DNA from: Phycisphaerae bacterium
GTDB taxonomy: Bacteria; Planctomycetota; Phycisphaerae; Phycisphaerales; SM1A02
Assembly (NCBI GenBank): GCA_002683195.1
Contig: NYSW01000102.1
Coordinates: forward strand, 1 to 25,012
Reading direction: 5' to 3'
Length of the DNA: 25,012 nucleotides
In this document: in pieces, positions 935 through 25,012 of the stretch
Position numbering within the stretch: position 1 is the first letter of the stretch
How the letters are laid out: every line of letters begins with the position of its first letter
Position numbers and translations under genes: made by a program
Notes under the pieces: generated by a model
The model's input: the letters and a program-made list of their open reading frames with translations, nothing else
Told to the model about the DNA's origin: nothing
The model's database searches: none

Positions 935-968
935 GCCGACAGGCCCTCCGTGCGGGGTGTGGAGATGA

Positions 969-6763: not shown

Positions 6764-6785
6764 TTCGCCACCCGGCGACGACTGC

Positions 6786-6791
6786 AAGGAG
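6786..6791 (+). promoter_or_regulatory. Ribosome binding site setting the propeller-protein start
   Basis: AAGGAG is placed 7 nt before the ATG at 6799. This selects that ATG over the longer in-frame opening that begins inside the preceding gene, and the resulting protein starts with a clean signal peptide. Confidence 0.75.
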
Positions 6792-6798
6792 CGAGTCC

Positions 6799-8888: not shown

Positions 8889-8916
8889 AGCCGCCTCTTC
8901 TCGATCGACCGGAATC

Positions 8917-11157: not shown

Positions 11158-11960
11158 TCGCTGCGACGTACCTCTCGGAGCACCCCGGCGTGATCGGTGT
11201 CGTCATTGAAGAAGAGGAAGGCCGAGATCTCCCGATCATCGGTGAAGGCGACCGGTCCGACCCCCGACGCGACGAACATCAGGCGGGTGCCGTCCACCGA
11301 TGCCGGGCCCACGCTGCCGTTGAATGAAACGGAGATCAGTCTCGCGTTGTACTCGCCCGCCGGGACCTTGATCCGAAAGCCGCCAAGATCCTCCCAGGTG
11401 CACCGAGCATTGCCGGAGTACTCGACGTCGGCCGGGGAACCAAGATCACTCACCACGATCTTGATCGAATTGGTCGCCTTCATCGTCCCCGGTTCTCGAA
11501 TCACCGGTTCCGCCGGATCGAGACGGACCAACAATCCATTGGGATGGTTGATCGTGATGGCCGACTCGATGGCGCCGTTGGACGTCTCCCGGAGAAATCG
11601 GGTCGATCCGTTCGATTGCACGATGGTCCAGCCCCGGACCTTGGACCCCTTGGTCGTACCCGGCGTTCGTTTCGCGGGCTCGATCGTCCAGCGAGTCGTC
11701 TTGCCCGCGTCCTTCGGCCGATCGTATTCGTACTCCGCCCGCGCGAGGGGGAGCCAATCCTCCGGCTTCACCAGAGGGGCGACGGTGTCGTCGCGATTCA
11801 GAACCACGCCCGGCAGATGGGCGAGCAACTGAGTCCGGACGTCCGCAGGCAGTTTCTCCAGCGGATCGTCGCCGGGTCCGGCCACGGCCGCAGAAGTGAT
11901 TCCACCAAGCAGGATCGATACGAAGAACGCAAGCCCAGTCGCACGCGAAGAGTGATTCAT
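11154..11960 (-). CDS. Exported protein of unknown function
   Basis: This 268-residue protein starts with a typical Sec signal peptide (hydrophobic FFVSILLGGITSAAVA, probable cleavage after AVA). The mature part is beta-rich, with alternating hydrophobic residues and no membrane helices. A stretch reading GGFRIKVPAGEYNARLISVSF, then GVGPVAFTDDREISAFLFF, resembles the end of DUF3108/LolA-like periplasmic proteins, where VPAGxY and GVGxV are common, but I cannot assign the family firmly. The ATG at 11960 is chosen because the signal peptide begins there; the in-frame opening continues upstream to 12005 without a better start. It is divergent from the glycosyltransferase with only 24 bp between start codons and overlaps the aminotransferase downstream. 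An envelope lipid- or polyene-carrier role would fit the neighbourhood but is speculative. Confidence 0.75.
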   Translation of the reverse strand: MNHSSRATGLAFFVSILLGGITSAAVAGPGDDPLEKLPADVRTQLLAHLPGVVLNRDDTVAPLVKPEDWLPLARAEYEYDRPKDAGKTTRWTIEPAKRTPGTTKGSKVRGWTIVQSNGSTRFLRETSNGAIESAITINHPNGLLVRLDPAEPVIREPGTMKATNSIKIVVSDLGSPADVEYSGNARCTWEDLGGFRIKVPAGEYNARLISVSFNGSVGPASVDGTRLMFVASGVGPVAFTDDREISAFLFFNDDTDHAGVLREVRRSE

Positions 11961-11984
11961 GCGAACATGGTACCGAGAAGCCCT

Positions 11985-13097
11985 ATGAATCCCGTGACCC
12001 GCCAACCATCTTCAACCCTCGAACCGTCCACCGACACGACATCGACGGTGATCCTCGTTCCCGTCTACGAGAACGCTGGAACCCTCGAAACGGTGGTCCG
12101 TTCCTGTGCCCGGACCGGACTTCCAGTGATCATCATCGATGATGGCGGTCAAGACGGTTCCGCGGAGATCGCCCTACGGCTGGTGGAGGAAGGAGTGGCC
12201 GAAGCAGTGGTCGAATGCCCACGAAACCTCGGCAAGGCCGGGGCGCTCCGTCTGGGTTTCGACGCGTCGATCGAACGAGGATTCCAGACGGCGATCACCG
12301 TCGATGCCGACGGGCAGCATGATCCGGCTTCGATCCTGCCCCTGATCGAAATGATCGAGCACCATCCGACCATGCTGGTGGTGGGATGTCGCTGGCCACT
12401 GCACCCCGATCAACCTCGTCGGAATCTGCTGGGGCGAACGGTCTCGAACGTCGCGATCCGCGCCCACGCCGGGGTGGCGGTCGGCGATGCGCCATGTGGC
12501 TTCCGCGCCTGGCCGCTGAAGACGACGGTCGGGATCCGGGGCCGCAGCGGTCGCTACGCCTGGGAACAGGAAATGATCACTCGGCTCGCCTGGCACGGTG
12601 CTCCGATCGGATCGATCGACATTCCGGCGATCTACCATCCGCGCGAGACCCGGGTCAGCCATTACCGCTTCGGACGCGACTGGCCCGAAGGGATCGCGAT
12701 CTATCTCCACCTCCTGCTGGTGGCCTTGATTCCAGGCCGGTTCTCGGCTGGCCGTCCGACCATCAGGCGTTTCTCCAGGCTGCTCTCGCCGGGGCCGCTC
12801 CGAGGCCGCCGCCCTGAGACGGCGACCAATCGATGGTTCGCCCTTGCCGCAATGACCGGGGGTCTTGCCGCCGGGCTCCTGCTCCCCGCCTCACCCTGGA
12901 CGTTCGGAATTCTGATCTGGATCGGTTGGCGATGGCACCTCGGACTGGCGGCGATCATGCTCGCCGTTCTGCCCTCGGCGCTGACGATTCCGAGTCTCGC
13001 CGGCGCCCCGTCCTGGATGATCACGGTCGGCGCGGCATGGTTGATCGGCGGTCTGCTTCGAAAGCCGGAAGCGGTGGTGGACCCGGTCGCCCGCTGA
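11985..13097 (+). CDS. Family 2 glycosyltransferase with C-terminal membrane segments
   Basis: The 370-residue protein begins with a GT-A domain of the dolichyl-phosphate-mannose-synthase type: VILVPVYENAGTLETVV (about 22-38), IIIDDGGQDGS (49-59), CPRNLGKAGALRLGF (78-92) and the DxD-like metal site VDADGQHDP (106-114). A conserved aromatic-acidic stretch, GRYAWEQEMITRLAW, follows. Residues 285-358 hold about three hydrophobic helices that would tether it to the cytoplasmic membrane, possibly a DUF2062-like module. It would move a sugar from a nucleotide donor to a lipid-linked acceptor. Glycosyltransferases of this family occur in many aryl-polyene clusters, so it may glycosylate the polyene lipid made by the adjacent operon. 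It lies on the opposite strand and ends 2 bp from that operon's last stop. GAGAAG lies 4 nt before the chosen ATG; ATG at 11967 is possible. Confidence 0.88.
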   Translation: MNPVTRQPSSTLEPSTDTTSTVILVPVYENAGTLETVVRSCARTGLPVIIIDDGGQDGSAEIALRLVEEGVAEAVVECPRNLGKAGALRLGFDASIERGFQTAITVDADGQHDPASILPLIEMIEHHPTMLVVGCRWPLHPDQPRRNLLGRTVSNVAIRAHAGVAVGDAPCGFRAWPLKTTVGIRGRSGRYAWEQEMITRLAWHGAPIGSIDIPAIYHPRETRVSHYRFGRDWPEGIAIYLHLLLVALIPGRFSAGRPTIRRFSRLLSPGPLRGRRPETATNRWFALAAMTGGLAAGLLLPASPWTFGILIWIGWRWHLGLAAIMLAVLPSALTIPSLAGAPSWMITVGAAWLIGGLLRKPEAVVDPVAR

Positions 13098-13099
13098 GG

Positions 13100-14548
13100 T
13101 CACATCGACTCGATGAGACGACCACGAAGGAGTTTGCCGGTCAGGGTTCTCGGCAGGGCATCCGTCAAGTCGAACACGCGTGGTCGCTGGTGAAGCGAAA
13201 GCCGTGTCCGAGACGCGGCCCGCAGGGCATCGATCACTCCAGCGGCCTCGAAACCGTCCGCCAGCACCACCACCGCTCGGACCCGGGTGACGGTCTCGGT
13301 CAACGCCATCGGGACCACCACGATCTCCCCCACTCCCGAAACCTCCCCGAGAATCGCTTCGACCTCGGCCGGATTGACCTTGAGCCCACCGACGTCGAAT
13401 TGGATCTTGGCCCGACCGTTGATGACCACTCGCCCATCGGAATCGATGCGCCCGAGGTCACCGGTTCGAAAGTGACCCTCGAGTCGCCGACCGGGATTCA
13501 CCGGACCACCTCGGACTTCGAGATACCCCTCGAACATCGCATCGCTTCGAACCAGCAGCTCGCCGACTCCGTGCTCCGAGACCACCGGGATCTCGCCCGC
13601 CTCTTCATCGACCTGGGTGCAGATCCGCATCGACACCCCGGGAACCGCCCGATCCTCTCCTCCGAGTCCGAAGGAGATCGTTCCGATCTCGGTGGCCCCA
13701 TACAGGTCCCCCGTTGGACAGTTCCACGCGGCGGCGAAGGCTTCCCGGACCGTCGCGGGAAGCGGGCTGCCGGCGGAATAGGCGAGACGAAGTCTGCTGT
13801 CCCGTCGAGCGACCCGGGTCGCGGCTTCCAACGTCACCGGCACGCCGGGAAACACCGTCACGCCGTTCGACAGGGCGGCGGCACCCCGGGCGAGATCGAA
13901 ACCGGCCCGGAACCGAACCCCGGCCCCCGCTCTCATCGGAGCGAGGACTCCGTGCTCGATCCCGTAGGCATGCTGCATCGGAAGCGTGGCCAGAACGTCA
14001 TCATCGTCGAGGAGACCGAGAACTTCGACCAGCGTCTTGGAGACCCGGTCCAGCCCGGCGGCGGTTCGCAGCGCCACCGCGGGACGACCGGTCGTCCCTG
14101 AACTTCGGAGAAGCAACGAACTTCGCGCGCCTCGGTCGAGCCGGTCCACCCTCGACCGCGAGCCCCCGCCCTCGATCACCCGATGAGTGGGTGTCGAGGG
14201 GTCCTCCCAGATCGACCTGCGATCGGTTTCAAGCACGGCATCGGCCTGATGCGATGACGCCAGACGTCGGCGATCGTCGGGGGAAGTCTCGGTACCGATC
14301 GGAAGAAGACGACGACCGGTTCCGAGGATGGCGATCAATCCCGACCAGTAGGCGGCACCACCAGGGCCGTGAAGAACGACCACTCCGTCCTCGGGAACTT
14401 CGGCGTCGATGACCGCAGCCATGTCCACGGCCGCGGAGAGCACCTCCGAACGGGTGGTGGTTCTGCCGGAATCAACCTCGGTGACCGCCGGTCGATCGGG
14501 ATCCCGATCGACCGAAGCGATGAACTCGTGGATCAGTCCATCTGCCAC
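13100..14548 (-). CDS. Acyl/aryl-AMP ligase (ANL superfamily), aryl-polyene starter activation
   Basis: The 482-residue protein has the ANL core motifs: P-loop SSGTTG (149-154), YGATE (283-287), RTGDLGRID (361-369), NGRAKIQFDVGGLKVNPAEVE (about 377-397) and the C-terminal catalytic lysine at 472 in PRTLTGK. The P-loop lacks the lysine that normally follows (RPAVAL in place of a PK-type sequence). ANL enzymes adenylate a carboxylate and pass it to CoA or a carrier protein. In the xanthomonadin and aryl-polyene pathways a homologous ligase loads hydroxybenzoate on the ACP, and the chorismatase two genes upstream would supply that acid. The start is a GTG at 14548, overlapping the halogenase by 16 nt, with no in-frame ATG nearby. 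It is the last gene of the operon. Confidence 0.88.
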   Translation of the reverse strand: MADGLIHEFIASVDRDPDRPAVTEVDSGRTTTRSEVLSAAVDMAAVIDAEVPEDGVVVLHGPGGAAYWSGLIAILGTGRRLLPIGTETSPDDRRRLASSHQADAVLETDRRSIWEDPSTPTHRVIEGGGSRSRVDRLDRGARSSLLLRSSGTTGRPAVALRTAAGLDRVSKTLVEVLGLLDDDDVLATLPMQHAYGIEHGVLAPMRAGAGVRFRAGFDLARGAAALSNGVTVFPGVPVTLEAATRVARRDSRLRLAYSAGSPLPATVREAFAAAWNCPTGDLYGATEIGTISFGLGGEDRAVPGVSMRICTQVDEEAGEIPVVSEHGVGELLVRSDAMFEGYLEVRGGPVNPGRRLEGHFRTGDLGRIDSDGRVVINGRAKIQFDVGGLKVNPAEVEAILGEVSGVGEIVVVPMALTETVTRVRAVVVLADGFEAAGVIDALRAASRTRLSLHQRPRVFDLTDALPRTLTGKLLRGRLIESM

Positions 14549-15903
14549 GATGGTCGCCCGCGATGTCTTCGTTGGACGCCGCGAATCACACCGGACTTCG
14601 CCGCGGGAAGTTCCACCCCACCTGACTGCAGCAGCGAATGCGGTCGGACCCAGTCGACCACCTGGCGGTATCGGTTCACCTCACGCATCGTTCGCATCAG
14701 TTCCCATCGCCATCGGACCTGGAAGGGAACCCCTTCGAAGATCTCGCCCGCGAGCATGTTCACGACCGCCGCGTCCACTTCCAGCGGTCCGCGTCCACTC
14801 ACCAGCAGTTCCCGGAACGAATGATCGTAGAAGTTGGAGATGAGTGACAGGAAACAGTGCCGAAGCCGCTTGACCCGCCGACCGAAGCTCACGCTCGCCG
14901 CTCTCGCGCTCTGGCGGCCATCTTCGACCGCGACGATCTTCGCCGCCGCCTGCACCCCGCTGTCGATGCCCAGGCTCACGCCGGTCGACCAGACGGGGTC
15001 GATGAATGCGGCCGCATCCCCGATCATGAACCACCCGTCACCCGCGTAGGGAGCACAGTTGTACGAGAAGTCTCCGACCACCTGATTGGTGGCCGGCCCC
15101 TCCGCGCCTCTCATGCGTTCGGTGACGATCGGACACTGCTCGATGCACCATGCGAGTCGTTGTTTCGCGGGGACGGGAATTCGCCGGGCATGCTGTTCAT
15201 CGACCACGACCCCGACACTGGTGGTCTTCTCGTCGATCGGAATCATCCAGAACCACGCTTCCCGGCACATGGCCAGGGTCGCGAATCCAAGGCGGTCGCC
15301 GCTGGGCCGTTCCACGCCTTCGAAATGCTCGAAGTAGGAGACGTTGCGATATCCCTCGAGCAGTTTCCGGGTTCCGAAGTGCCGGCCCAGAACGCACGCC
15401 TGACCGCTCGCATCGATCAACCACGCCGCCCGGACCTCCCCGGAACTCAGGCGGAGCCGGACATCGCCTTGCGCGACATGATCGATGGACTCGACCGATT
15501 CACCGAACCGATAGGTCGCCCCGGCCTCCATCGCGGTATCGGCGAGCATCTGGTCGAAGACCGACCGCCGGATGTTGAACGTCTCCTTGATCGTGTCGCC
15601 GAGCATCCGTTCGAACGGAATGGCGACCGGTTCGCGCCGTCCGTCGCCGAAGGTGATTTCAAGCCCGCGCTTCCTCACATGAGGGAGAGCACGGATCTTC
15701 TCCATCAGACCGAGGCGCTCCATCATCCGATTGGTGTGCGGGAGCATCGATTCACCGATTCGGAACCGCGGAAACGATTCCTTGTCGATCACCAGGACGC
15801 GGCGACCGGCCCGAGCCAGTTCGAGCGCCGCAACGCTGCCCGAGGGACCTGCTCCGATGACGATCACGTCGTAATGTTCGGCGGCGTCGGGACGGGAAAT
15901 CAT
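14533..15903 (-). CDS. Flavin-dependent halogenase (tryptophan-halogenase-like family)
   Basis: This 456-residue protein has an N-terminal FAD-binding GAGPSG (18-22) and the halogenase sequence FPRFRIGESMLP (44-55). Lys78 lies in a KRG context that aligns with the active-site lysine of phenol/pyrrole halogenases. The signature WxWxIP is present as WFWMIP (217-222), and the second FAD motif is GDAAAFIDPVWSTGV. WxWxIP separates halogenases from flavin monooxygenases, so bromination or chlorination of an aromatic ring is the best guess. Xanthomonadins are brominated aryl polyenes, and halogenase-like genes are known in that cluster. The ATG at 15903 is chosen over the longer opening at 15969 because it forms an ATGA overlap with the chorismatase stop and starts just before the FAD motif. 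A flavin reductase partner is not in the window. Confidence 0.85.
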   Translation of the reverse strand: MISRPDAAEHYDVIVIGAGPSGSVAALELARAGRRVLVIDKESFPRFRIGESMLPHTNRMMERLGLMEKIRALPHVRKRGLEITFGDGRREPVAIPFERMLGDTIKETFNIRRSVFDQMLADTAMEAGATYRFGESVESIDHVAQGDVRLRLSSGEVRAAWLIDASGQACVLGRHFGTRKLLEGYRNVSYFEHFEGVERPSGDRLGFATLAMCREAWFWMIPIDEKTTSVGVVVDEQHARRIPVPAKQRLAWCIEQCPIVTERMRGAEGPATNQVVGDFSYNCAPYAGDGWFMIGDAAAFIDPVWSTGVSLGIDSGVQAAAKIVAVEDGRQSARAASVSFGRRVKRLRHCFLSLISNFYDHSFRELLVSGRGPLEVDAAVVNMLAGEIFEGVPFQVRWRWELMRTMREVNRYRQVVDWVRPHSLLQSGGVELPAAKSGVIRGVQRRHRGRPSWQMD

Positions 15904-16865
15904 GCGCCCGAACCATTCAGCGGCCGGAAGCCCGCACATTCGATCTCGACCAGGAGCTCCGGCCGACACAGTCCCTGTTGCCGGATGATCACTCGTGGCC
16001 CCGCGCCGATGGCCGAGAGCACCTGCTCCTCGTGCGAAAGGTCGGGGAGGTAGACCAACCAGTCATCGAGGTCTTCGGGCCTCGCTCCCGGCCAGGCCGC
16101 GTCCACCACCACGGCGAGATTTCGAAGCGTCTCGGTCAGCTGCCCGTCGAATGCTTCGAGGTGAGCGGAATCTTCGCCGACCACACTCGCGGTACCGCTG
16201 ACCAGGAGCCCCTCTCGGCCGCCGACCTGCATGGTCGCCGCTCGGGCGAAGACCGGAGGCGGGTCACCGAAGCGGGACGAATAGGCATCGGGCATCACCT
16301 GGCGGGGATTGTCGATGCATCGGGGGCGTCCCGGGCCGTGCAGCAGATGCACGACGAGGTCCTCGCCTGCATGCCCCACTCCAGATGCCGCCGGGTAGAT
16401 CACCGGTGATCCCATCGAGTCGGTGAACCCGTGGTATCGACCCGCATTGAAGACCATGTAGCGATCTCGATTCTCTCGGACTTCTGCCGTGGCCCGGTCC
16501 GCGGGGTCATTGATCCCGGGAATGAAATTCCAGGCCCGCAGGAGCTGATCCTGGGTGAGACCATCGAGCAGCCGTCGATACGCATCCCGGGTCGCCGCTT
16601 CGAAACACGCGGCTCCCATGGAGGCAGCGCCTTGGACTCGCACCATCCGGTGTCCGAATCGAGGGTCGAGTTCCGAGCAGTCGAGAAACTGGCCGACCCA
16701 CGCCGGGAGATCGGTCCCTGCTCCGGTCGCGGACCAGGGAACCGCCGAACGAGGAGTCGTCCTCGCCGGCACGCGGCGACCTCGAAGCTCGCGGTTCTTT
16801 CCGACCGTCTCGATCTTTTTCACAACTTGTCGAACGTCAGAAGAGGTCCTCATGGATTCGATCAT
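15900..16865 (-). CDS. Chorismatase, FkbO/Hyg5/XanB2-type (hydroxybenzoate-forming)
   Basis: The 321-residue protein matches the chorismatase family: a central FNAGRYHGF (139-147), YPAASGVGH (157-165), DNPRQV (185-190), FARAATMQV (206-214), LLVSGTASVVGEDSAH (220-235) and the C-terminal LLVEIE (304-309). These enzymes combine two YjgF/RidA-like halves and remove pyruvate from chorismate. FkbO-type members make a dihydroxycyclohexadiene acid, Hyg5-type members make 3-hydroxybenzoate, and XanB2 makes 3- and 4-hydroxybenzoate for xanthomonadin. Which product forms here depends on a few active-site residues I cannot assign with certainty. In this operon hydroxybenzoate as polyketide starter is the obvious reading. 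The ATG at 16865 forms an ATGA overlap with the KS-CLF stop and has AAGG about 6 nt upstream. Confidence 0.85.
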   Translation of the reverse strand: MIESMRTSSDVRQVVKKIETVGKNRELRGRRVPARTTPRSAVPWSATGAGTDLPAWVGQFLDCSELDPRFGHRMVRVQGAASMGAACFEAATRDAYRRLLDGLTQDQLLRAWNFIPGINDPADRATAEVRENRDRYMVFNAGRYHGFTDSMGSPVIYPAASGVGHAGEDLVVHLLHGPGRPRCIDNPRQVMPDAYSSRFGDPPPVFARAATMQVGGREGLLVSGTASVVGEDSAHLEAFDGQLTETLRNLAVVVDAAWPGARPEDLDDWLVYLPDLSHEEQVLSAIGAGPRVIIRQQGLCRPELLVEIECAGFRPLNGSGA

Positions 16866-19057
16866 ACCGCCTTGATGGCGGCACTCCCCGACCCACCGGC
16901 TTCATCCCGAGCCCCGATGGTCACGGAAAAATCACCGGTGACCGCGTTTGCGACCGCGAGCAACGGACCGACGGAATGCCGTTCCACCACCTCTTGCCCG
17001 GTCTTCAGATGGTTCCCGGGCGTCGCTCGAGCCACCAGACGATCTCCCGGTCCCTCGCTCGCGTGATCCGCACCGCAAAAGCAGACCTCGCTTTCTGTGT
17101 CCTGCAACGCCATTCGCCAGGCATCGACGGATCCACGCCAGCCCTCTCGAGGCGGCCAGACGATTCGCGTGGATGCCAGATCCGCTCGAATGGTTCCGCT
17201 TCGAGCGGCGGCCGCGGAACGTCGTTCCAGTACCAGTGCAACCGCTCCTTCAGCGGTCGGCCGTTCATCGAGAAGCCTCAGGCGTCGAAGAATGGAGCGA
17301 ATTCGCGGATGGGTCTCTTCGGCCGCGACCACGATCGCCCGATCGGCCTGACCGCTTGCGAGATGCCGCCGGGCCAGATGCAGCGCCTCGATCCCAGCAA
17401 GCCGGGTCCCCGAGGTGGAGAGCGTGAGGCCCTCGATCCCCAGGCCGAGACTCAACTGAGCACTCCCGATGTTGGGGACGCTCTCCGCGAAGTGAAGTGG
17501 ATTGCCGGCACCAAGGCCGTCACGGATCAGCTCGTCGTAGAAGTCGAGGGTGTATTCGGAAGCTCCGAACCTCGTGCCCACGAAGGCCGCGGATGAACGA
17601 ATCTCCGCTTCCCCGAGACCGGCGTCATCCGTGGCCAGTCGCCCCGCCGCTCGAACCAGTTGGGCGAACCGCGCGAGCCGACGAACGGCGCGAGGATTGT
17701 CCAGACCCTCCAATGCTTCCGGTTCGAGACCGAGTTCGCCGTCCCGAATCGAGGCCGAGTTCGAGGAAGGCACGAGAATCCCGACTCCAGTGACCACCAC
17801 GTCATCCAGAGCGTGGATCGGGGGTGCGGACGGCGTCGGTTCCGTGACCGACATCGATTCGATCTCGATCGCGGCATCCGCCCCGCCGAAGCCGAGCGAA
17901 AGCACCACACCCCGATCGACCGTTCGATCCCGGGGCGAGGTCACGAGATCCAGAGTGGGAAAGGACTCTCGATCCGCGGTGGCGTTGGCGGCGCCGGGAA
18001 TCCGACCGGTTTCCATCGACGCGATCAGGACCGAGAGTTCCACCGCCCCGGCCGCCCCGAGGGTGTGGCCGATGCGACTCTTCAGAGCGGTCACCGGAAT
18101 GGACGGAAATCGTTCCCCGAACGCGGCCTGCATCGCGGCATGCTCGGCGGCGTCGTTGGCCGGGGTCGAAGTCGCATGGGCAATCACCAGATCGGGCGGT
18201 GCGACCGCGGCCTCGCGGATGGCTCGGGCCGCACCCCGTCCGTCGGGGATCGGCTGCGTGAGGTGATGGGCGTCGCTCGCCGCACCCCAACCGAGCACCC
18301 GTGCCAGTGGCGAAGCTCCCCGCGCCCGAGCGTCGGGGGCACGCTCGAGCACGAACACGCCGTAGCCCTCACCGACCCTCATGCCTTCACGATCCACGGT
18401 GAAAGGGCGAAGCGGACCCTCTGCGATCAACCGCAGACATGAGAAACCCGCGAAAGCGAACTCGCTGATCGGGTCATAGGCGATGGCGATCGCCAGGTCG
18501 CATTCGTCGAGGAGCAACGCGGTCGAGGCAAGGGCCATCGCACTGACCCCGGACGCACAGGCGGCCGAAATCGTGCTTCCCCCCAGGGGGAGTCCGGTGT
18601 CCCGCAGAGCCGCCCGAGTGACGGTCCCGGTCAGTGATCCTGCATAGTCCGCGAGGTCATCGGTCCGCATCGCGCGTCCGAGGTGACGCATGCCACCAAG
18701 CGTGGTCCCGAAGATCGATTCCACCCGACGCGGGCGTCCAGCATTCATCGGCGGCACGCCATCGCGCAGGCCGGCCTCCTCCATCGCCTGCATGATGGTT
18801 CGCTGAAGGAAACGCTCCGCCCGATCGCCGTCGCCTCCCGGGTGCGGCTCGGCCTCGAACGCCTGGGCAGCTCGGACCGGCTGCGATGGCTCGCCGTCGA
18901 CCGCCATGAAGGTCGATTCGATCGCCGGAGCCGCGTCGATTCGGACCTCGTCGCGAAGCATCGCCTCCAGAATCGCATGGCGCCCCTCTCCGAGGGAGCA
19001 GCAGGCCGCCGCGGCCGTGATGACCACGTCCTCGGAATTCGCCACTGACGGACTCAT
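16862..19057 (-). CDS. Fused ketosynthase/chain-length-factor protein (type II PKS-like)
   Basis: This 731-residue protein carries two thiolase-fold units in tandem. The first (about 10-400) is an active-type beta-ketoacyl synthase: Cys167 in SAACASG, His294 in AHATST, Lys326 and His331 in LKSRIGHTLGAAG, and a C-terminal GFGGADAAI. The second (about 415-731) restarts with VVVTGVGILVPS, the standard KS opening. In it the cysteine position reads STSGTRL (Gly550), and the HGT and KxxxGH motifs are degenerate. That matches a chain-length factor, which shapes the product tunnel without condensing. In aryl-polyene systems KS and CLF are normally separate subunits forming a heterodimer (for example ApeO/ApeC). 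Here a linker of about 20 residues rich in Pro, Ser and Thr joins them. The substrate would be the hydroxybenzoyl-primed chain on the neighbouring ACP. Confidence 0.88.
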   Translation of the reverse strand: MSPSVANSEDVVITAAAACCSLGEGRHAILEAMLRDEVRIDAAPAIESTFMAVDGEPSQPVRAAQAFEAEPHPGGDGDRAERFLQRTIMQAMEEAGLRDGVPPMNAGRPRRVESIFGTTLGGMRHLGRAMRTDDLADYAGSLTGTVTRAALRDTGLPLGGSTISAACASGVSAMALASTALLLDECDLAIAIAYDPISEFAFAGFSCLRLIAEGPLRPFTVDREGMRVGEGYGVFVLERAPDARARGASPLARVLGWGAASDAHHLTQPIPDGRGAARAIREAAVAPPDLVIAHATSTPANDAAEHAAMQAAFGERFPSIPVTALKSRIGHTLGAAGAVELSVLIASMETGRIPGAANATADRESFPTLDLVTSPRDRTVDRGVVLSLGFGGADAAIEIESMSVTEPTPSAPPIHALDDVVVTGVGILVPSSNSASIRDGELGLEPEALEGLDNPRAVRRLARFAQLVRAAGRLATDDAGLGEAEIRSSAAFVGTRFGASEYTLDFYDELIRDGLGAGNPLHFAESVPNIGSAQLSLGLGIEGLTLSTSGTRLAGIEALHLARRHLASGQADRAIVVAAEETHPRIRSILRRLRLLDERPTAEGAVALVLERRSAAAARSGTIRADLASTRIVWPPREGWRGSVDAWRMALQDTESEVCFCGADHASEGPGDRLVARATPGNHLKTGQEVVERHSVGPLLAVANAVTGDFSVTIGARDEAGGSGSAAIKAV

Positions 19058-19503
19058 GATCCCGATTCCGAATCCGATCCCGGGAGGCTGACCGCCACCG
19101 CCCCCAGCGCGACGACGTCACCGCTCACTCGGGCCTCGAACTCGAAACGATGAATCGTCCCCATCGAGCGATCGAGTTCCACCGAGAGTTCGACCTCCGC
19201 CGGGGGTTCCACCGGGCGTTTGAACCGCGCTTCCTGAAGGACGAGCATTCCCCGGCCATCGCCCCCGAACGCCTGATGCGCAACGGCTCCGGCGAGTTGC
19301 GCGGCGGCTTCCACCAGCAGCACCCCGGGGACCAACGGGTGACCGGGAAAATGCCCACGCAGAAAATCCTCGTCTCCCCGGACACGCCAGCAACCTCGGC
19401 CTCGTTCAGGACCGAGTTCATGGATCTGATCGAGGAATCGAAATGGCTCGCCGTGAGGAAGCGAGCGCAAGGCGAGATCGAGCGAGGTCGGATCGGTGGT
19501 CAT
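19054..19503 (-). CDS. 3-hydroxyacyl-ACP dehydratase, FabZ-like hot-dog fold
   Basis: The 149-residue protein has the FabZ pattern: LPHGEPFRFLDQI (about 15-27), then FLRGHFPGHPLVPGVLLVEAAAQLAG with catalytic His51 and Glu65, and a later KFxRPV-type strand (RFKRPVEPPAEVEL). It would dehydrate 3-hydroxyacyl-ACP intermediates to enoyl-ACP, the step that leaves each polyene double bond when no enoyl reductase follows. Aryl-polyene clusters carry such dehydratases (ApeI/ApeP types). Both ends overlap neighbours as ATGA: the ACP stop with this start, and this stop with the KS-CLF start. It belongs to the operon rather than to primary fatty-acid synthesis, since no fabA, fabF or lpx genes are nearby. 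Confidence 0.9.
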   Translation of the reverse strand: MTTDPTSLDLALRSLPHGEPFRFLDQIHELGPERGRGCWRVRGDEDFLRGHFPGHPLVPGVLLVEAAAQLAGAVAHQAFGGDGRGMLVLQEARFKRPVEPPAEVELSVELDRSMGTIHRFEFEARVSGDVVALGAVAVSLPGSDSESGS

Positions 19504-19769
19504 CCGGCTTGCCGAAGCTCTTCGACGAAGTCCACGAAAGCCCCGACCGTGGCCATCGTGTCCCGACCGAGTCGGTCATTGGGAATCTTGATCCCGATTC
19601 GCTTTTCCGTGCCGGTCACCACCATCAGGAGATCGAGGGAATCAAGCCCCAGCTCGTCGCCGACCAATGGTGTGTCCGGACTCAGATTGATCGCCCCGAG
19701 CTTGAGATCGGTTCGGAGCACGTCGCAGACGGTTTCGAAGAGTTCGTTCTGGGAATCGGTCATGGTCAA
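19500..19769 (-). CDS. Acyl carrier protein
   Basis: This small acidic four-helix protein (89 residues from the TTG at 19769, 87 from the ATG at 19763) carries the phosphopantetheine attachment serine in LGLDSLDLL (Ser44 counting from TTG). It would hold the growing hydroxybenzoyl-polyene chain as a thioester for KS-CLF, dehydratase and the absent ketoreductase. An in-frame TAG lies four codons before the TTG, so translation must begin at TTG or ATG; a poorly placed AAGG lies 12 or 18 nt upstream respectively. This is the only real gap inside the operon (17 or 23 nt after the permease stop). High ACP output relative to its neighbours would explain a separate ribosome entry. It overlaps the dehydratase gene by 4 nt. 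Confidence 0.93.
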   Translation of the reverse strand: MTMTDSQNELFETVCDVLRTDLKLGAINLSPDTPLVGDELGLDSLDLLMVVTGTEKRIGIKIPNDRLGRDTMATVGAFVDFVEELRQAG

Positions 19770-19780
19770 GAGTTCGTTCT
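19738..19780. repeat. 13-nt direct repeat at the ACP start
   Basis: The 13-mer AAGAGTTCGTTCT (plus strand) occurs at 19738-19750 and again at 19768-19780, an offset of exactly 30 nt. The inner copy encodes Asn-Glu-Leu-Phe of the ACP and the outer copy spans its start region in the same frame. A short in-frame duplication at the start of the gene is one explanation; chance is another. Confidence 0.6.
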
Positions 19781-19786
19781 ACCTTC

Positions 19787-21061
19787 TCACCGCCAGCGGG
19801 CGACGGCTATCCGGGCTCCGATCAGGAAGATCACGGTGGTGACCGCAATCAGGCCGAGGGCCGGTGCGATCCGTCCAAACATCGAGGCGAGCGTATCGCT
19901 CGGAGTCGTATACCAGAGTACCTGTTGGAGAGCCCCGATGGACCTCGCATTGAAGGCCCAGTCGCCGACCGCCTGCAGGGAGGGAGGCATGAGGAAGGTC
20001 GGGATCATGCTCCCGCCGATGGCACTCAGGACCAGAACCGCGATGGTGCCGATCGTCGTCTGCTGCCGACGGGTCTGGGCGATTCCCGTGATGAACATTC
20101 CCAATCCCGCCGCTCCAGCCGCGATCGCCGGCAGCAGGATCCCCAGGCAGACCAGTTGTCTGAACGAAAAGAATCGGACGTCGAAGACCAGTGCGGCCCA
20201 CGCAAGCATCGCGATGATCTGAGCCATCCCCACCAGGATCGAAAAGAAGAATCGGTTCAGAACCACGGCCCACGGGCCGATTCCCGAGGCTTTCAGTCGA
20301 TCGAGAATGCCGCGTTCATGTTCTTCCAGGAGCCACCCGGTGGTGGACAAGGCACTGAACAGCATGAACATCACCCCGATCGCGGCGGTGTAGTAGGTGA
20401 CCAGCGACGGCCCCCCCGGTCCGACTTCGACCGGCCCCGCTTCGACCGAGACCCTCGTCGCCTTCACGATCGTCTCGACCGCACCGGCAAAGGGACCACC
20501 GCCCGGCTCTTCGCCGGCCGCTTCCATCGAACGAGACAGTGCCGACTGCCGTTCGGTCAGTGGACCAGCCACCATCTCCAGCACCTTGATCTCCCGACCC
20601 AGGAGTTGGGCCGCAAGACCTTCCCAGGCCGAGGCGGCCATCACCCCACGAGCGAACTCCGGGGCGATCGGATTCGCAGGGTCGAAGCGAACCTGCAGGT
20701 CGGGGATCCGTGCCGTCGGATCCGAGATCGCCGCCCCGAATCCGGCCGGGACCACGACACCCGCGGGGAAATTGCCGTCTGCAACCACCGCATCGATGTC
20801 GGCGACGGAATCCCCTTCGATCGAGATCAGATCCAGCCGTTCGGCCTTTCTTGCCGCCGCGGCGAGGGCGGCGGAGGAAGGGCTTTGATCGAGATCGAGG
20901 ATCGCGACCCGAACCTTGTTCTCTCCGTTGCGTCCGAACCCCTGGAAGACCGTCGCGAAGATCGAAAGAAAGACGATCGGCACGATTGCGTACAGAGCGA
21001 ACCCGAGTCGGTCCCGGTGCAACGTGATCCAGGCCATGCGCAGAAGGGCGAAGCGCCTCAT
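19787..21061 (-). CDS. ABC-2 type transporter permease
   Basis: The 424-residue protein has the ABC2_membrane_3 layout: an N-terminal membrane helix (GFALYAIVPIVFLSIFATVF), a large extracytoplasmic domain of about 200 residues (VAILDLDQSPSSAALA, VQVRF-type strands), then five or so C-terminal helices preceded by the coupling-helix sequence LEEHERGILDRLKASGI. The family exports lipids, polysaccharides or drugs with an ATPase subunit. The ATPase, encoded at the right edge four genes upstream, is the likely partner. The ATG at 21061 is chosen because it forms ATGA with the LpxL-type stop and has GAGG 8 nt upstream; the longer opening at 21121 lies inside that gene. In the aryl-polyene operon it would export the finished lipid, in place of the MMPL exporter usual in such clusters. 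Confidence 0.9.
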   Translation of the reverse strand: MRRFALLRMAWITLHRDRLGFALYAIVPIVFLSIFATVFQGFGRNGENKVRVAILDLDQSPSSAALAAAARKAERLDLISIEGDSVADIDAVVADGNFPAGVVVPAGFGAAISDPTARIPDLQVRFDPANPIAPEFARGVMAASAWEGLAAQLLGREIKVLEMVAGPLTERQSALSRSMEAAGEEPGGGPFAGAVETIVKATRVSVEAGPVEVGPGGPSLVTYYTAAIGVMFMLFSALSTTGWLLEEHERGILDRLKASGIGPWAVVLNRFFFSILVGMAQIIAMLAWAALVFDVRFFSFRQLVCLGILLPAIAAGAAGLGMFITGIAQTRRQQTTIGTIAVLVLSAIGGSMIPTFLMPPSLQAVGDWAFNARSIGALQQVLWYTTPSDTLASMFGRIAPALGLIAVTTVIFLIGARIAVARWR

Positions 21062-22059
21062 GATGCGATCCTCGTCTTGGAGGATGAATCGTCCTGCCAG
21101 ACCGGGCGGACATTGAGCCACTGCGTCGGGTGGCAGGAGATCACATCCTGGATCATCGAGACCCAGCGACGTACTCCGGAGTGATTTCCGGGATCTCGAC
21201 GCAGATCACCATCCATGGGAAGTGGCTCCTCCATGCGGAGTGCCAGCCCGCCGTCGGGAAGTCGCCAGTTGAAGACGGGGATCACCGAGGCATCCGCGGA
21301 CTCCGCGAGTTTGAACGGACCCACCGGAATCTCCATCTTTCGACCGAACACCGACAACGGCGTGCCCCGCTGGCCCGGTTGAACGCGATCACCCAGCAGG
21401 GCCACGACTTCTCCGCGGTCCAGACCATCTCGAAGTTCCGCCCAGGTGGCCAATCCGTCATCGACCGCATGACCGATGACCCCGAGCCGTTGTCGGGCGC
21501 GACGTCGCATGTTCTCGAGGGTTCGAATGGGATCACGGTGATAGAGAACGTGGACCGGGGCGTGACGTCCGATGAAGGCCGCCGCAGGCTCGAATTCACC
21601 CATGTGCATCGAGAGCATCACGATGCCTCGCCCATCACGGTCGCGGAAGTGAGTCCGAAACCTGTCCAGACCCTCCACATGGCCGATCCGGTCGAGCAGT
21701 CGCTCCGGTGTCTGCCGGGATGCGATGGCGATACCTTCCATGTATCGCTGCATGTGGTCGAGCACGCCGACGCCATAGGCGTCGATCTCGGCCTCTCCGG
21801 CGTCCGGCCCCAGGATGATGCGGCCGTTCTCCTGCAAAGTCCGCCGCCATGAATCCGCTCGGCGCCAGGTCTCCGCCACCATTCGAGGTCGAAGCCTGGC
21901 GGTGATCGACGGCGCGTGGGCATACCCTCGGAGCAGGGCGGAAACCGCCAGCCGTTCGACCAAGGAGATCCGACGACCTTCCGGGTCCGCTCCGGCGTCA
22001 TCGCGAATGCGAGCCTCGGAGGATGAACGATTCGGAATGCCCGTCGCCGTGGGATTCAC
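21058..22059 (-). CDS. LpxL/HtrB-type acyltransferase (LABLAT family)
   Basis: This 333-residue protein belongs to the Kdo2-lipid-A acyltransferase-like family. Its catalytic site is HMGEFE (His152, Glu157, an HX4E arrangement), followed by LLGDRV (222-226), FGRKMEIPVGPFKLA and IPVFNWRLPDGG. It has no N-terminal signal; the hydrophobic stretch near residues 30-45 would sit at the membrane surface. The enzymes use acyl-ACP to acylate a lipid acceptor. Homologues are standard in aryl-polyene clusters and are thought to attach the polyene chain to a lipid. It starts at GTG 22059, which overlaps the PlsC-type stop as GTGA, with a GGGAG about 8 nt upstream. It overlaps the permease gene by 4 nt. 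Confidence 0.88.
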   Translation of the reverse strand: MNPTATGIPNRSSSEARIRDDAGADPEGRRISLVERLAVSALLRGYAHAPSITARLRPRMVAETWRRADSWRRTLQENGRIILGPDAGEAEIDAYGVGVLDHMQRYMEGIAIASRQTPERLLDRIGHVEGLDRFRTHFRDRDGRGIVMLSMHMGEFEPAAAFIGRHAPVHVLYHRDPIRTLENMRRRARQRLGVIGHAVDDGLATWAELRDGLDRGEVVALLGDRVQPGQRGTPLSVFGRKMEIPVGPFKLAESADASVIPVFNWRLPDGGLALRMEEPLPMDGDLRRDPGNHSGVRRWVSMIQDVISCHPTQWLNVRPVWQDDSSSKTRIAS

Positions 22060-22808
22060 GAGACCGCTCCCTTCGGTTCGGCCCCGATCGGCACGGTCTC
22101 CTCCTCGGAGACCAAAGACAAGGCTTCGACCGCATTCCGCAGGCGGGCGGTGAATTCCCCCGAACTCTCGTCCGCCCCGGCTCGCAGCGCCTCACCGAAA
22201 CGAACCTGCAGGGTGCCCGGCCGAGGCCAACGGACGCCGGGCGGGAGAATCCGCTGGGTTCCATCGATGCAGGCGGGGACCACCGGAAGATCATGTCGCC
22301 GTGCGAGTTCCGCCGCTCCGTGACGAAATCGGCCCATGCGCCCGGTCCGCGAACGGGTCGCCTCGGGAAAGATCATCAGGTTCCAGCCTTCGCCGAGCAT
22401 CGCATCGATGCGATCGATCTGCGAATACTCACCGCCCACTCGATCGATGAGGAGCACGTTCATCGCGCTGCGAATGAACCAGATGACGATCCGCCGGAAC
22501 CATCGCTCCCGTCTCGGCTGACCCGCCCGGGGTACGAAGAAGTCGAGTCCGCCCACCGTTGCCGTCCGGTCTCGACGATTCCCGGGCAGCGCGATGAAGA
22601 TCACCGGGGTGTCGACCAGGCTGTGGTGATTCGAGACCACGATGAACTGTTCGTGATCCTTGAATCGATCTTCACCATCGACCTTCACCGGGACTCGGCA
22701 GACGATCTGGCCGGCATCGTGCATGAAGCGAAGCAGGCCGCGAGCCACACGACGACTGAACCAGCCGGTCGGTACTCCGAACCCTGCGATGTCCGTGCCC
22801 TGGGTCAT
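22056..22808 (-). CDS. PlsC-type 1-acylglycerol-phosphate acyltransferase family protein
   Basis: The 250-residue protein has the four PlsC blocks: HHSLVD (61-66, HX4D active site), an arginine-rich block around 93-112, the substrate-binding FPEATRSRTG (147-156), and VPACIDGTQ (177-185). It normally transfers an acyl chain from ACP or CoA to lysophosphatidate in the inner leaflet of the cytoplasmic membrane. Set inside this operon next to an LpxL-type enzyme, it may use the polyene or a companion fatty acid to build the final lipid; a housekeeping role is also possible. ATG 22808 overlaps the DUF2141 stop (ATGA) and AGGA lies about 5 nt before it. The gene ends 4 nt inside the LpxL-type gene. 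Confidence 0.88.
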   Translation of the reverse strand: MTQGTDIAGFGVPTGWFSRRVARGLLRFMHDAGQIVCRVPVKVDGEDRFKDHEQFIVVSNHHSLVDTPVIFIALPGNRRDRTATVGGLDFFVPRAGQPRRERWFRRIVIWFIRSAMNVLLIDRVGGEYSQIDRIDAMLGEGWNLMIFPEATRSRTGRMGRFRHGAAELARRHDLPVVPACIDGTQRILPPGVRWPRPGTLQVRFGEALRAGADESSGEFTARLRNAVEALSLVSEEETVPIGAEPKGAVS

Positions 22809-23398
22809 GAATCCTGCGTGGTCCCGTTCGACGACGCCTCCGGGGCCCCTCGTCGTTCACGCCGGACTTTCGATCGATCGAGCGACGTTCCCATTCGAAA
22901 TCGAACGACGGTCGTCGGCCCCTGCAGTTCAACCGCCACGTTCTCGAAGGAAGGCAGGCCGAGAATCACGGACTGGTCGTTGGAGAATCCCCAGGGTTCG
23001 GCAGGCAGTCCGATGAAATTCCGCGTCAGGGTCTTGTCTCGTTCGATGTCTATGAAGCCGGAGATCGCGCTGGGGATCGTCCGCACGTCCTCGAAGATCA
23101 CTCGGGTGACCGGGATGACCACCGGGGTCACGATGGACTCGACCCATCGATCCTCTTCCAGAAAATCCTCCGGGGCCTGGAAGACCGCGAGGTAGAGCTG
23201 TTCGTTCTCCCACTGCGCGGTCTCGACCTCGATCACGAGCCGGGTGGTGCCCGCGATCATCTCCGAATCCCCCGCGTCCTTCACCGGGACGCTCTGGCAT
23301 CCCACCGACAAGCCGATGGCGACGCACGAAAGCGTCATCGCGATTCGCGATGCGGGCAGGTGACGGAGAAAATGGTCAACCAGCCGGGGCCGTGGCAC
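22805..23398 (-). CDS. DUF2141-family lipoprotein
   Basis: This 197-residue protein matches DUF2141: a LYLAVFQAPEDFLEED strand-helix (68-83), and the key block RNFIGLPAEPWGFSND (126-141), which in the family reads close to lGiPxEGyGFSNn, followed by LPSFENVAVEL. A short hydrophobic region with the sequence LSVGC gives a possible lipobox (Cys34), although Ser at -3 is not ideal. DUF2141 proteins are exported and of uncertain function, often encoded near membrane-lipid or pigment genes. The start is GTG 23398: it has a strong AGGAG with a 6-nt spacer and lies within the methyltransferase gene (23-nt overlap). An ATG at 23338 is also in frame but lacks such a site. A role in polyene-lipid handling at the envelope is inference from position. 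Confidence 0.82.
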   Translation of the reverse strand: MPRPRLVDHFLRHLPASRIAMTLSCVAIGLSVGCQSVPVKDAGDSEMIAGTTRLVIEVETAQWENEQLYLAVFQAPEDFLEEDRWVESIVTPVVIPVTRVIFEDVRTIPSAISGFIDIERDKTLTRNFIGLPAEPWGFSNDQSVILGLPSFENVAVELQGPTTVVRFRMGTSLDRSKVRRERRGAPEASSNGTTQDS

Positions 23399-24110
23399 GG
23401 AACTCTCCTAGAAGACCACCCGCAGGGCGGTATTCGATTTCGGTGAAACCAGCGTCCCCGAGCTTTTCAAGAACGACTTCACGGGGTGCAAAGGAGGATA
23501 TCGAGTCCCAGAAATGACGCAGGAGATCACGAACCGACAACGACCCGCAGGCCAGGCCGAAGACCCAGGCCCCCACCCCTCTGATCATGAACCTCGTCGC
23601 TCCCCGCCTGAAGGGTGATCGCGGCACCATCATCTCCAGCAGGACCAGGCGTCCACCCGGGCGAAGAACCCTGCGAATCTCCTGAAACGCCTGATCGAGG
23701 TCTTCGACGTATCGGATGGCGTATCCACTGACCACCGCGTCACGACTGCAGTCCTCGACCGGGATGTTGGAAAAGGAACCCGGTCGGATGTCTCGAACCC
23801 CGGCCCGTTCCGCGACCGCCAGCATTTCCGGGCAGGGGTCGACCCCCACGATCGAAGGTGAATCCGGCAGGAAACGCTGCGCCGCCATGGTCAGCACCCC
23901 GGTTCCGCATCCGACGTCGACGAGGGTCGCGTCCGGCGGAAGCTCGAGCGAGATGATCGTGCGTCGGCGATACCAGTTGCTGGTGCCGAAACTGACCAGC
24001 GTGTTGAGTCGGTCGTACCGGTTGGCGGTCCGGGCATACAGGTCCATCACCGCCGGGTCAGCCGCCGGGTGATCACCATGACCGCCTTTCTTGCTGGGAG
24101 CGGCGGGCAT
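23376..24110 (-). CDS. UbiE/MenG-like SAM-dependent methyltransferase
   Basis: The 244-residue protein has a class I Rossmann methyltransferase core: LVDVGCGTGVLT (motif I), VGVDPCPEMLAVAE (motif II), SGYAIRYVEDLDQAF and the LRPGGRLVLLEM strand-turn. The N-terminal DLYARTANRYDRLN resembles the UbiE/MenG opening, and ALRY-type YAIRYV is close to the UbiE FGLRNV. It would methylate a polar aromatic or quinone-like substrate with SAM in the cytosol. Here the likely substrate is the aryl head group or polyene rather than a quinone, since methylated aryl polyenes are known. The ATG at 24110 shares a base with the ATPase stop (TGATG); the opening extending to 24278 inside the ATPase gene is not used. 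Confidence 0.88.
   Translation of the reverse strand: MPAAPSKKGGHGDHPAADPAVMDLYARTANRYDRLNTLVSFGTSNWYRRRTIISLELPPDATLVDVGCGTGVLTMAAQRFLPDSPSIVGVDPCPEMLAVAERAGVRDIRPGSFSNIPVEDCSRDAVVSGYAIRYVEDLDQAFQEIRRVLRPGGRLVLLEMMVPRSPFRRGATRFMIRGVGAWVFGLACGSLSVRDLLRHFWDSISSFAPREVVLEKLGDAGFTEIEYRPAGGLLGEFRATAPAG
23403..23409 (-). promoter_or_regulatory. Strong ribosome binding site for the DUF2141 GTG start
   Basis: AGGAGAG on the minus strand, with its core AGGAG 6 nt before the GTG at 23398, decides that start over an in-frame ATG 60 nt downstream. It lies inside the coding sequence of the upstream methyltransferase. Confidence 0.75.
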
Positions 24111-25012
24111 CACTCTCGAAGATCCCGACCGGTCAATCGAAGGAAGACCTCTTCCAGGCTGGCCTGGTGGAGTCGGATTCCCTCGACGCCGCCCGGCACC
24201 GATTCCAACGCGGTGATCGCGGCCTGAAGTTCGCCCCCGAGACCGGGAAGCGGAACTCGAATCGTCCGACCATCCCAATTCCCCACCGGAGAGACGAAAT
24301 CATCGGACATGCGTCCCACGGGGCGGGCCTCCAGTTCGTACCGGGCGATGCCGTAACTTTCCGCCAGGGCCCCGGTCTCTCCGCGGGCCACCACTCGGCC
24401 GTGATCGATGATCGCGACCGAATCGACCAGGGTCTCCGCTTCCTCGATCAGGTGCGTGGCGTGAAGAATGGTCGCGCCGTCGCGCTGGAGATCGCCGATC
24501 ATCCGCCAGATCGCGGCTCGGGCCTGCGGATCGACACCTTCGGTGGGCTCGTCCAGGAGGAGAAGTCTCGGGCGATGAAGCACGCTGACCGCGAGATTCA
24601 GTCGTCGTTGCATCCCGCCGGAATAGTGGCCGACCAGATCGTCGGCCCGATCTCCGAGCTGGCTGAACTCGAGGGCCCAGTCGACCCGGTCCGATCGATC
24701 CCGGCGCTCGACGCCGAGGAGATCACAGTGAAGACTGAGGTGCTCGCGGGCGGTCATCGCATCGTGCAGGGCGATCCGTTGCGGCACGAAGCCGAGTTCG
24801 GAGGCCCCGGGGCGACCCCGGCCGAACGCGGAGACGATCCCGACGTCCTCACGAAGGAGGCCCGCGATGCACCGCATGAGGGTCGTCTTTCCGGCTCCGT
24901 TGGGACCGAGCAGGGCCGTCCATTCCCCCGGCGCGAGCGAAAGATCGACCCCCGCCAGGGCCTCGAGCCGACCGAACGACTTCCGCACGCCCGACACCAG
25001 CAACGCCGGCGG
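24110..25012 (-). CDS. ABC transporter ATP-binding protein; 5' end lies beyond the right edge
   Basis: The visible 300 or so residues contain a complete nucleotide-binding domain: Walker A GPNGAGKTT, signature YSGGMQRRL, Walker B LLLLDEPTEGVDP and the H-loop ATH. An N-terminal VRKSFGRLEALAGVDLSL and a C-terminal accessory domain (about 100 residues after the H-loop) fit the CcmA/NodI-type ATPases that pair with ABC-2 permeases. No ATG is present before the edge; the frame is still open at 25012 (a TTG at 25003 is unlikely to be the start), so the gene begins outside. It would power the permease encoded at 19787-21061 and may be the first or an early gene of the operon. More operon genes probably lie to the right. 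Confidence 0.93.
   Translation of the reverse strand, partial: PPALLVSGVRKSFGRLEALAGVDLSLAPGEWTALLGPNGAGKTTLMRCIAGLLREDVGIVSAFGRGRPGASELGFVPQRIALHDAMTAREHLSLHCDLLGVERRDRSDRVDWALEFSQLGDRADDLVGHYSGGMQRRLNLAVSVLHRPRLLLLDEPTEGVDPQARAAIWRMIGDLQRDGATILHATHLIEEAETLVDSVAIIDHGRVVARGETGALAESYGIARYELEARPVGRMSDDFVSPVGNWDGRTIRVPLPGLGGELQAAITALESVPGGVEGIRLHQASLEEVFLRLTGRDLRE

Follow-up and report, generated by a model that had tools for sequence, protein, structure and literature searches.

Gene content of the operon

The stretch of DNA analysed here, referred to as the window, comprises 25,012 nucleotides of contig NYSW01000102.1 from a Phycisphaerae bacterium (assembly GCA_002683195.1). From 13100 to 25012 it carries 12 tightly packed minus-strand genes that form one operon, which is best read as encoding an aryl-primed polyene-lipid pathway; that this is an aryl-polyene (APE)-type lipid biosynthesis and export operon of the Phycisphaerales has, in our estimate, a probability of roughly 0.7. 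From 25012 towards 13100 the genes encode an ABC transporter ATPase, a UbiE-type methyltransferase, a DUF2141 protein, a PlsC and an LpxL acyltransferase, an ABC-2 permease, an acyl carrier protein (ACP), a FabZ-like dehydratase, a ketosynthase (KS) fused to a chain length factor (CLF), a chorismatase, a protein of the flavin-dependent halogenase family, and an AMP-ligase. Counted on the longest open reading frames, neighbouring genes overlap at 10 of the 11 borders, the overlaps being 4 to 169 nt long, and are 17 nt apart at the other; internal starts would make some of these overlaps smaller. The operon reaches the edge of the window, where the 5' end of the ABC ATPase gene is open.

Domains were called by Pfam and NCBIfam profile searches of the window proteins (Table 1). 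An earlier note on this DNA had described a single minus-strand operon with a xanthomonadin-like set of domains in a planctomycete-like genome, and all of the domains that it named are present where it placed them. Its inventory did not list the DUF2141 gene, the single-protein KS-CLF, or two syntenic genes beyond the end of the operon, for a GT2 glycosyltransferase and an aminotransferase. The GT2 gene is convergent with the operon, ending 2 nt from the ligase gene on the other strand, and is followed by the genes for a secreted-looking protein and a class-III aminotransferase.

Table 1. Genes of the operon and its flank, with the evidence for each assignment (SAM, S-adenosylmethionine; AF2, AlphaFold2)
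Feature	Position	Strand	Evidence
ABC transporter ATPase (DrrA/NodI-like)	24110..25012	-	PF00005 96.7 bits; drrA 213 bits, cut-off 312 not reached; Walker A GPNGAGKT
UbiE-type SAM methyltransferase	23376..24278	-	PF01209 85.9 bits; DVGCGTG motif; likely true start near 24110
DUF2141 protein, candidate periplasmic or outer-membrane lipoprotein	22805..23398	-	PF09912 60.5 bits; lipobox-like Cys by eye
PlsC-type acyltransferase, relative of ApeD	22056..22808	-	PF01553 69.2 bits; HX4D; ApeD match 23%
LpxL-type lipid acyltransferase, like acyltransferase part of ApeJ	21058..22059	-	PF03279 66.4 bits; HX4E
ABC-2 exporter permease	19787..21121	-	PF12698 93.1 bits; 43-67% identity in 7/7 type A genomes
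Acyl carrier protein	19500..19769	-	PF00550 35.6 bits; GLDSL
FabZ-like dehydratase	19054..19503	-	PF07977 67 bits; FabZ 87.5 bits, cut-off 113 not reached; PHGEPF, GHFPG...E motifs
Fused ketosynthase-chain length factor, 731 aa	16862..19057	-	KS residues, CLF Gly550, AF2 model, KS clade
Chorismatase, predicted 3-hydroxybenzoate former	15900..16865	-	PF21168 50.8 bits; TIGR04444 91 bits, cut-off 325 not reached; fold; residues
Flavin-dependent halogenase-family protein	14533..15969	-	PF04820 83.6 bits; GAGPSG, WFWMIP, FIDPVWSTG; PDB halogenases 5bul, 3i3l
AMP-dependent aryl/acyl ligase	13100..14548	-	PF00501 116.7 bits, PF13193 37.6 bits; ApeH match 25%
GT2 glycosyltransferase, related to GT part of ApeJ	11544..13097	+	PF00535 61.9 bits; ApeJ 31%; true start internal, roughly 11960
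Secreted-looking protein of unknown family	11154..12005	-	no Pfam match; syntenic in L039-L043
Class-III aminotransferase	9754..11157	-	PF00202 280 bits; 43-72% in L002, L039-L043, L048, L050, L053, L055

Ketosynthase ancestry and the predicted aromatic starter

The KS and CLF are halves of one polypeptide. In the KS half C167, H294, K326, and H331 are kept in all 70 aligned rows (the window and 69 homologues picked from the 120 matches listed of 3734), while in the CLF half Gly550 stands at the cysteine position in 70/70, giving a cysteine-less chain length factor. The named organisms among the matches listed are all planctomycetes, mostly Phycisphaerae, and the loci L001 and L002 (L numbers denote loci or neighbourhoods, G numbers genomes) are from Phycisphaerales metagenome-assembled genomes (MAGs), in agreement with a planctomycete-like genome. 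The AF2 model of the protein (pLDDT 92.7, pTM 0.94) has as its best fold match in the PDB the single-chain PfaC KS-CLF 6riw (TM 0.76 by query); KS and CLF are on one chain in both, but identity is only 16%, and PfaC is part of a large multidomain polyunsaturated fatty acid synthase system.

In a maximum likelihood tree of 39 KS rows, with partial and repeat rows omitted and the flexirubin KS of Bacteroidota outside it, the Phycisphaerales KS form their own clade (19 rows, 100/99). They join CFT073 ApeO, one ApeO-like KS from Xanthomonadales, and three xan KS on a branch (98/93) that separates all of these from FabF, FabB, ApeR, three Streptomyces rows, and tandem KS rows. This placement rules out that the KS is a FabF, an outcome that the earlier note had named as refuting its reading.

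The tandem KS rows represent a pair of divergent ketosynthase genes, separate from the cluster, that is present in 6/6 Phycisphaerales genomes searched with E. coli FabF (G001, G002, G050, G067, G115, where it is partly recovered, and G153; loci L126-L138, L144, and L146). The pairs of G002 and G067 lie apart from the cluster KS-CLF in the KS tree. On a Streptomyces plasmid (L109, NZ_CP106799), a type II cluster includes a protein of 784 aa, annotated as belonging to the beta-ketoacyl synthase family, in which two domains are KS-like; fused KS-CLF-like proteins thus exist elsewhere too.

A KS-CLF with a cysteine-less CLF, together with the absence of a ketoreductase (KR) match, would also suit a classic poly-keto type II polyketide, aromatic and cyclised, that is primed by hydroxybenzoate. 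However, there is no cyclase or aromatase among the domain matches of the operon, a dehydratase is present, the KS is apart from the three Streptomyces rows, and the two membrane-lipid acyltransferases point to a lipid. There is very little chance that such a polyketide is the product.

The chorismatase has, in its predicted model, the two-domain fold of Hyg5 and FkbO. Its best matches in a fold search are the solved chorismatases 5a3k and 5ag3, both of which we take to be Hyg5, and 4bps, which is FkbO, with RidA-like proteins far below. The two domains rule out a RidA-only protein, and the family assignment in the earlier note is therefore upheld. The scores for the Hyg5-type and FkbO structures are nearly equal (3.8e-21 and 2.0e-20), so the fold cannot tell which product is formed. 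Residues G162, G224, C300, and E307 are at the positions of those of the CH-II, or 3-hydroxybenzoate-forming, chorismatases, which in Nat-hyg5 are G164, G231, C318, and the catalytic E325 (PMC7170507; papers are cited here for the parts of their text that were available). In 12 XanB2-like rows from Xanthomonadales and Lysobacterales the equivalents of Gly224, Cys, and Glu are the same, with position 162 being Ala in 10/12 and Gly and Cys in the others, and FkbO also has Gly at 162; it is therefore only the combination of residues that is informative for CH-II. The score against TIGR04444, the curated FkbO/Hyg5 model, is under its cut-off (Table 1), which makes the window protein a homologue outside the curated subfamily. 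The sequence of a chorismatase is said not to fix its product by itself (PMC3949708), so the formation of 3-hydroxybenzoate here is a prediction.

In a tree of 42 chorismatase rows (the window, 33 of 34 loci, and 8 of 41 database homologues), the window is placed with L039-L043 (97/94) and with L001 and L002 (100/99). The 12 Xanthomonadales/Lysobacterales enzymes form a separate clade with the window outside it (100/99); these rows are from Xanthomonadales genomes and two Lysobacterales MAGs, the named XanB2 sequence not being among them.

Genes for both the supply and the activation of an aromatic starter, the chorismatase and the AMP-ligase, are thus in the same operon, the substrate of the ligase being putative. 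The motifs GxGxxG, WxWxIP, and Fx.Px.SxG of the flavin-dependent halogenases are all found in the window protein, which belongs to this family by sequence and would be a putative halogenase; its score against the CmlS model is 198 bits, under the cut-off of 900.

Cluster types and export genes in the Phycisphaerales

The order from ABC ATPase to ligase is the same in the MAG contigs L001 and L002, at 38-54% identity, with the methyltransferase and DUF2141 genes not there; L002 also has the GT2 and aminotransferase genes. Across L001, L002, and L039-L043 the genes keep the order of the operon, with protein identities of 33-78% (the L043 contig stops short of DUF2141), and the GT2 gene is syntenic in L002, L039-L043, L048, L050, L053, and L055, L001 being cut inside it. 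A survey covered 301 genomes from the order to which G002 (the Phycisphaerales genome that contains L002) belongs. Chorismatase is found in 45 of them at 1e-3, of which 35 are at 3.1e-20 or better, and the KS-CLF profile finds 38 at 2.4e-112 or better, followed among the matches listed, best first, by a gap to FabF-type proteins at 9.6e-86 and weaker. Both are present in 33 genomes, with KS-CLF only in five and chorismatase only in two (Fisher p 2e-36, ignoring shared descent). This co-occurrence and the recurring order support an association of the genes that is more than chance.

The neighbourhoods of 22 of the 45 chorismatase genes were read (L001, L002, and L039-L058), and in 20 the KS-CLF gene is near. 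In five of these it is at the edge or reversed (L045, L054, L057, and L058, with continuations L116-L119, and L051, where it is inverted). The two others are L052, a 7.8-kb contig with KS-CLF pieces on other contigs of the genome, and L056, where the KS-CLF gene is about 10 kb further on the same contig. The Lysobacterales loci L003 and L004 were rejected as relatives of the cluster, having chorismatase only, plus one ABC ATPase match in L003.

It could be that the chorismatase supplies hydroxybenzoate for some other purpose, such as quinone synthesis, a free signal, or a halogenated phenol, and that the adjoining lipid genes have a separate function. Indeed, XanB2 of Xanthomonas feeds coenzyme Q too (PMC3949708), and two genomes have the lipid core with no chorismatase nearby. 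However, the ligase, halogenase, chorismatase, and KS-CLF genes overlap in one operon and chorismatase is present in 33/38 of the KS-CLF genomes, which makes separate functions very improbable.

The Phycisphaerales clusters read fall into two kinds, with LolA/MMPL or with ABC/DUF2141, for which the labels A, A2, and B were coined in this analysis. Type A comprises the window, L001, L002, and L039-L044 (L043 and L044 are cut by contig ends), with the ABC genes present. Type A2 (L048, L050, L053, and L055) contains DUF2141, PlsC, LpxL, KS-CLF, chorismatase, halogenase, ligase, methyltransferase, GT2, aminotransferase, and dehydratase genes, arranged differently from type A, and also has the ACP, except in L055 where the contig ends. 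ABC genes are found in L048 and L055 only; the L050 and L053 loci are without them, with related pumps on other contigs. The aminotransferase gene is between the GT2 and dehydratase(-ACP) genes in L050, L053, and L055, which would suggest that it is likely to be part of the cluster. Type B (L045-L047, L049, L051, L052, L054, and L056-L058) shares with the window the fused KS-CLF, chorismatase, ligase, ACP, dehydratase, and LpxL (L046, L047, and L049 are examples), with the halogenase in 3/10 loci, and has LolA, a lipoprotein, and MMPL of its own; DUF2141 and, in the locus, the ABC permease were not found.

The LolA of L046 is matched in 10/10 type B loci and its MMPL in 9/10 (all but L051), and both in 0/10 of the type A/A2 loci among L039-L058; for type B these families were checked by Pfam on the L046 proteins (LolA 41.6 bits, MMPL 128.6 bits). 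At 1e-2 the window has no match to either of these two proteins or to the L046 lipoprotein. As a LolA probe E. coli ApeL is not a fair one, being so distant that even the type B LolA escapes it. Twenty whole genomes were compared (7 type A, 4 A2, and 9 B), leaving aside G286 and G275, whose clusters are cut; the L046 MMPL is present in 9/9 type B and 0/11 type A/A2 at 1e-20, both MMPL genes of G039 being far from the cluster. Genome-wide, DUF2141 is present in 10/11 type A/A2 and 0/9 type B, the only miss being G292, where the contig ends before the expected place. MMPL and DUF2141 are therefore mutually exclusive in the genomes searched. The ABC permease is matched strongly in 7/7 type A genomes and weakly in 4/4 A2 (1e-13 to 1e-8).

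This division is not clean throughout. In G001 and G002 the DUF2141 gene is at another place in the genome, and of the other operon genes that were mapped none adjoins it, apart from weak halogenase and ApeQ matches nearby in L154. Among the 301 genomes it is in 25, 19 with KS-CLF and 6 without, so its link to the cluster is a correlation. A homologue of the ABC permease is also present in 3/9 type B genomes (in G099 at 2e-46, away from the cluster, and weakly in G185 and G303), and since the A2 matches are weak as well, the export swap is clean for MMPL and DUF2141 but not for the ABC pump. In the DUF2141 proteins inspected, a hydrophobic stretch is followed by Gly or Ala and then Cys, which by eye resembles a lipobox; a simple lipobox motif scan has no match in the window's own DUF2141 protein. 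E. coli ApeJ matches the GT2 in the window and both GT2 and LpxL in L050 and L055; the LpxL equivalent is matched in five relatives (L046, L047, L050, L055, and L058), the window LpxL being without a match.

The remainder of the window has an RND efflux trio on the minus strand (2-3850; an AcrB-like pump cut by the window edge, a membrane fusion protein, and an outer-membrane factor) and a plus-strand gene group (3932-9558). The first protein of this group is a cytochrome c of 943 aa that has a PA14 domain and several CxxCH sites. After it come a protein that weakly matches ScyD/ScyE and DUF7133 (6598-8391), a member of the cytidine-deaminase family (8388-8888), and a gene resembling those of CAAX proteases (8554-9558). 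GC content is 0.63-0.67 throughout, with no compositional island, and neither Rfam at gathering thresholds nor a tRNA search identified anything in the window.

The proposed pathway and known aryl-polyene systems

The xanthomonadin (xan) and arcuflavin (arc) clusters (PMC3949708; Xanthomonadales loci L080-L089) share with the window the chorismatase, AMP-ligase, ACP, dehydratase, KS and CLF-like protein, halogenase, acyltransferases, GT2, and methyltransferase. In contrast, the window has KS and CLF fused, one dehydratase, an ABC-2 pump and DUF2141 instead of LolA/MMPL, no match for KR, LolA, or MMPL, and a chorismatase outside the Xanthomonadales clade. The E. coli CFT073 APE cluster (apeA-apeR) shares the KS of the ApeO clade, CLF, ACP, ligase, dehydratase, ApeD- and ApeJ-like functions, and methyltransferase. 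It differs in its separate ApeO and ApeC (PMC8358021), its ApeR, its two ACPs and two dehydratases (PMC8253772), and its KR, thioesterase, LolA, RND/MMPL, and LolB-like ApeN, with no chorismatase or halogenase annotated. The aryl-polyene lipid reading of the earlier note is retained as the best one, its product being inferred, while "xanthomonadin-type" is too strong for a cluster with this gene content.

Several observations weigh against an aryl-polyene product. Of the 18 E. coli APE proteins, only five have matches in the window at 1e-2, with identities of 23-35%, and two of these match the same KS. By the domain calls for the 12 genes there is one dehydratase and one ACP, against two of each in E. 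coli, whose ApeI and ApeP, having no match in any Phycisphaerales locus, are poor probes. For the KR ApeQ the window gives no match at 1e-2, a search that covers the window while the operon runs past its edge by at least the start of the ATPase gene, and the neighbourhoods of 20 relatives give none at 1e-4; it does match in the Xanthomonadales loci L080, L082, L083, L086, and L088, at 42-46% identity. In favour of the pathway, in 6/6 type A genomes the best ApeQ homologue adjoins a FabF-type KS and is therefore most likely FabG. Deletion of the cluster KR in Lysobacter abolishes the pigment, giving a white phenotype (PMC3691225), and reliance on FabG in trans is therefore a real weak point of the polyene reading. 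For the starter, 22 other Phycisphaerales chorismatase rows have Gly162 in 12 and Ala, Cys, or Ser in 10, so that Gly162 is a weak marker of the product.

The five genomes with KS-CLF and no chorismatase match at 1e-3 belong here also. L157 (G198) and L158 (G103) have KS-CLF, ACP, dehydratase, LpxL, PlsC, GT2, and aminotransferase, L157 also having DUF2141 and ABC genes and a polysaccharide deacetylase gene, of which there is a similar one by eye in L158. At 1e-4, the roughly 20 kb around the core in each is free of matches to the chorismatase, halogenase, and ligase, so that the core need not make an aryl product; the halogenase and ligase were sought in the neighbourhoods of L157, L158, and L160. 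L160 (G107) has ACP, dehydratase, LolA-like, LpxL, and KS-CLF genes, with starter genes not in 17 kb, and L159 (G244) is a 5.4-kb contig; these are the four of the five that were read, G250 being left out.

With no KR match and one FabZ-like dehydratase, the cluster itself does not determine how unsaturated the chain is, and the operon may instead make a lipid with an aryl cap but no conjugated polyene, for example a short aryl acyl chain, hydroxy- or saturated, that fatty-acid enzymes have reduced and that is attached to a membrane lipid. The lipid acyltransferases and exporter would fit this too. However, the KS groups with the ApeO/xan KS, whose products are polyenes, and there is no enoyl reductase among the domain matches of the operon, making such a lipid unlikely. 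The polyene lipid is further supported by the type B sister clusters, which with the same KS-CLF and chorismatase carry LolA/MMPL, the usual APE export genes.

In an aryl-polyene pathway the chorismatase would convert chorismate to 3-hydroxybenzoate, the AMP-ligase would load this on the ACP, and the single-chain KS-CLF would extend the starter with malonyl units. FabG, as a KR borrowed from fatty-acid synthesis, and the cluster dehydratase would then give a conjugated double bond per unit, and the halogenase-family enzyme and methyltransferase may modify the aryl end. The PlsC and LpxL acyltransferases and the GT2 would attach the chain to a lipid or glycolipid, which the ABC-2 pump would move out, the DUF2141 lipoprotein-like protein perhaps carrying it toward the outer membrane in place of LolA/MMPL. 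We infer the product, the order of the steps, the use of FabG in trans, and the roles of DUF2141 and of the aminotransferase.

The earlier note knew of no characterised cluster of this kind in PVC bacteria, and this is not contradicted by the literature searched, PMC8882080, PMC9259500, and PMC10132072 among it, in which, with most subscription journals outside the search, only predictions and counts of planctomycete aryl-polyene clusters were found. One arylpolyene cluster each has been predicted in Phycisphaera mikurensis (PMC8882080) and in the verrucomicrobium Oceaniferula flavus (PMC9865893), so the novelty here is one of architecture. The celluxanthenes were set aside as a parallel, coming from an iterative type I polyketide synthase (PMC12144888).

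It is possible, and is proposed here tentatively, that the Phycisphaerales evolved a second, LolA- and MMPL-free polyene-lipid route to the outer membrane, made up of the ABC-2 pump and a DUF2141 lipoprotein, with the same core used with or without an aryl-starter cassette. If so, lipid carriers would have a new class in DUF2141, giving this domain of unknown function a testable role, and the core would be a general polyene-lipid maker that borrows its KR from fatty-acid synthesis. A conserved planctomycete branch with a fused KS-CLF, a KR that is not in the cluster, and swapped export genes would show rewiring of the pathway, and would lead one to expect that the Phycisphaerales have a polyene lipid that is halogenated or methylated.

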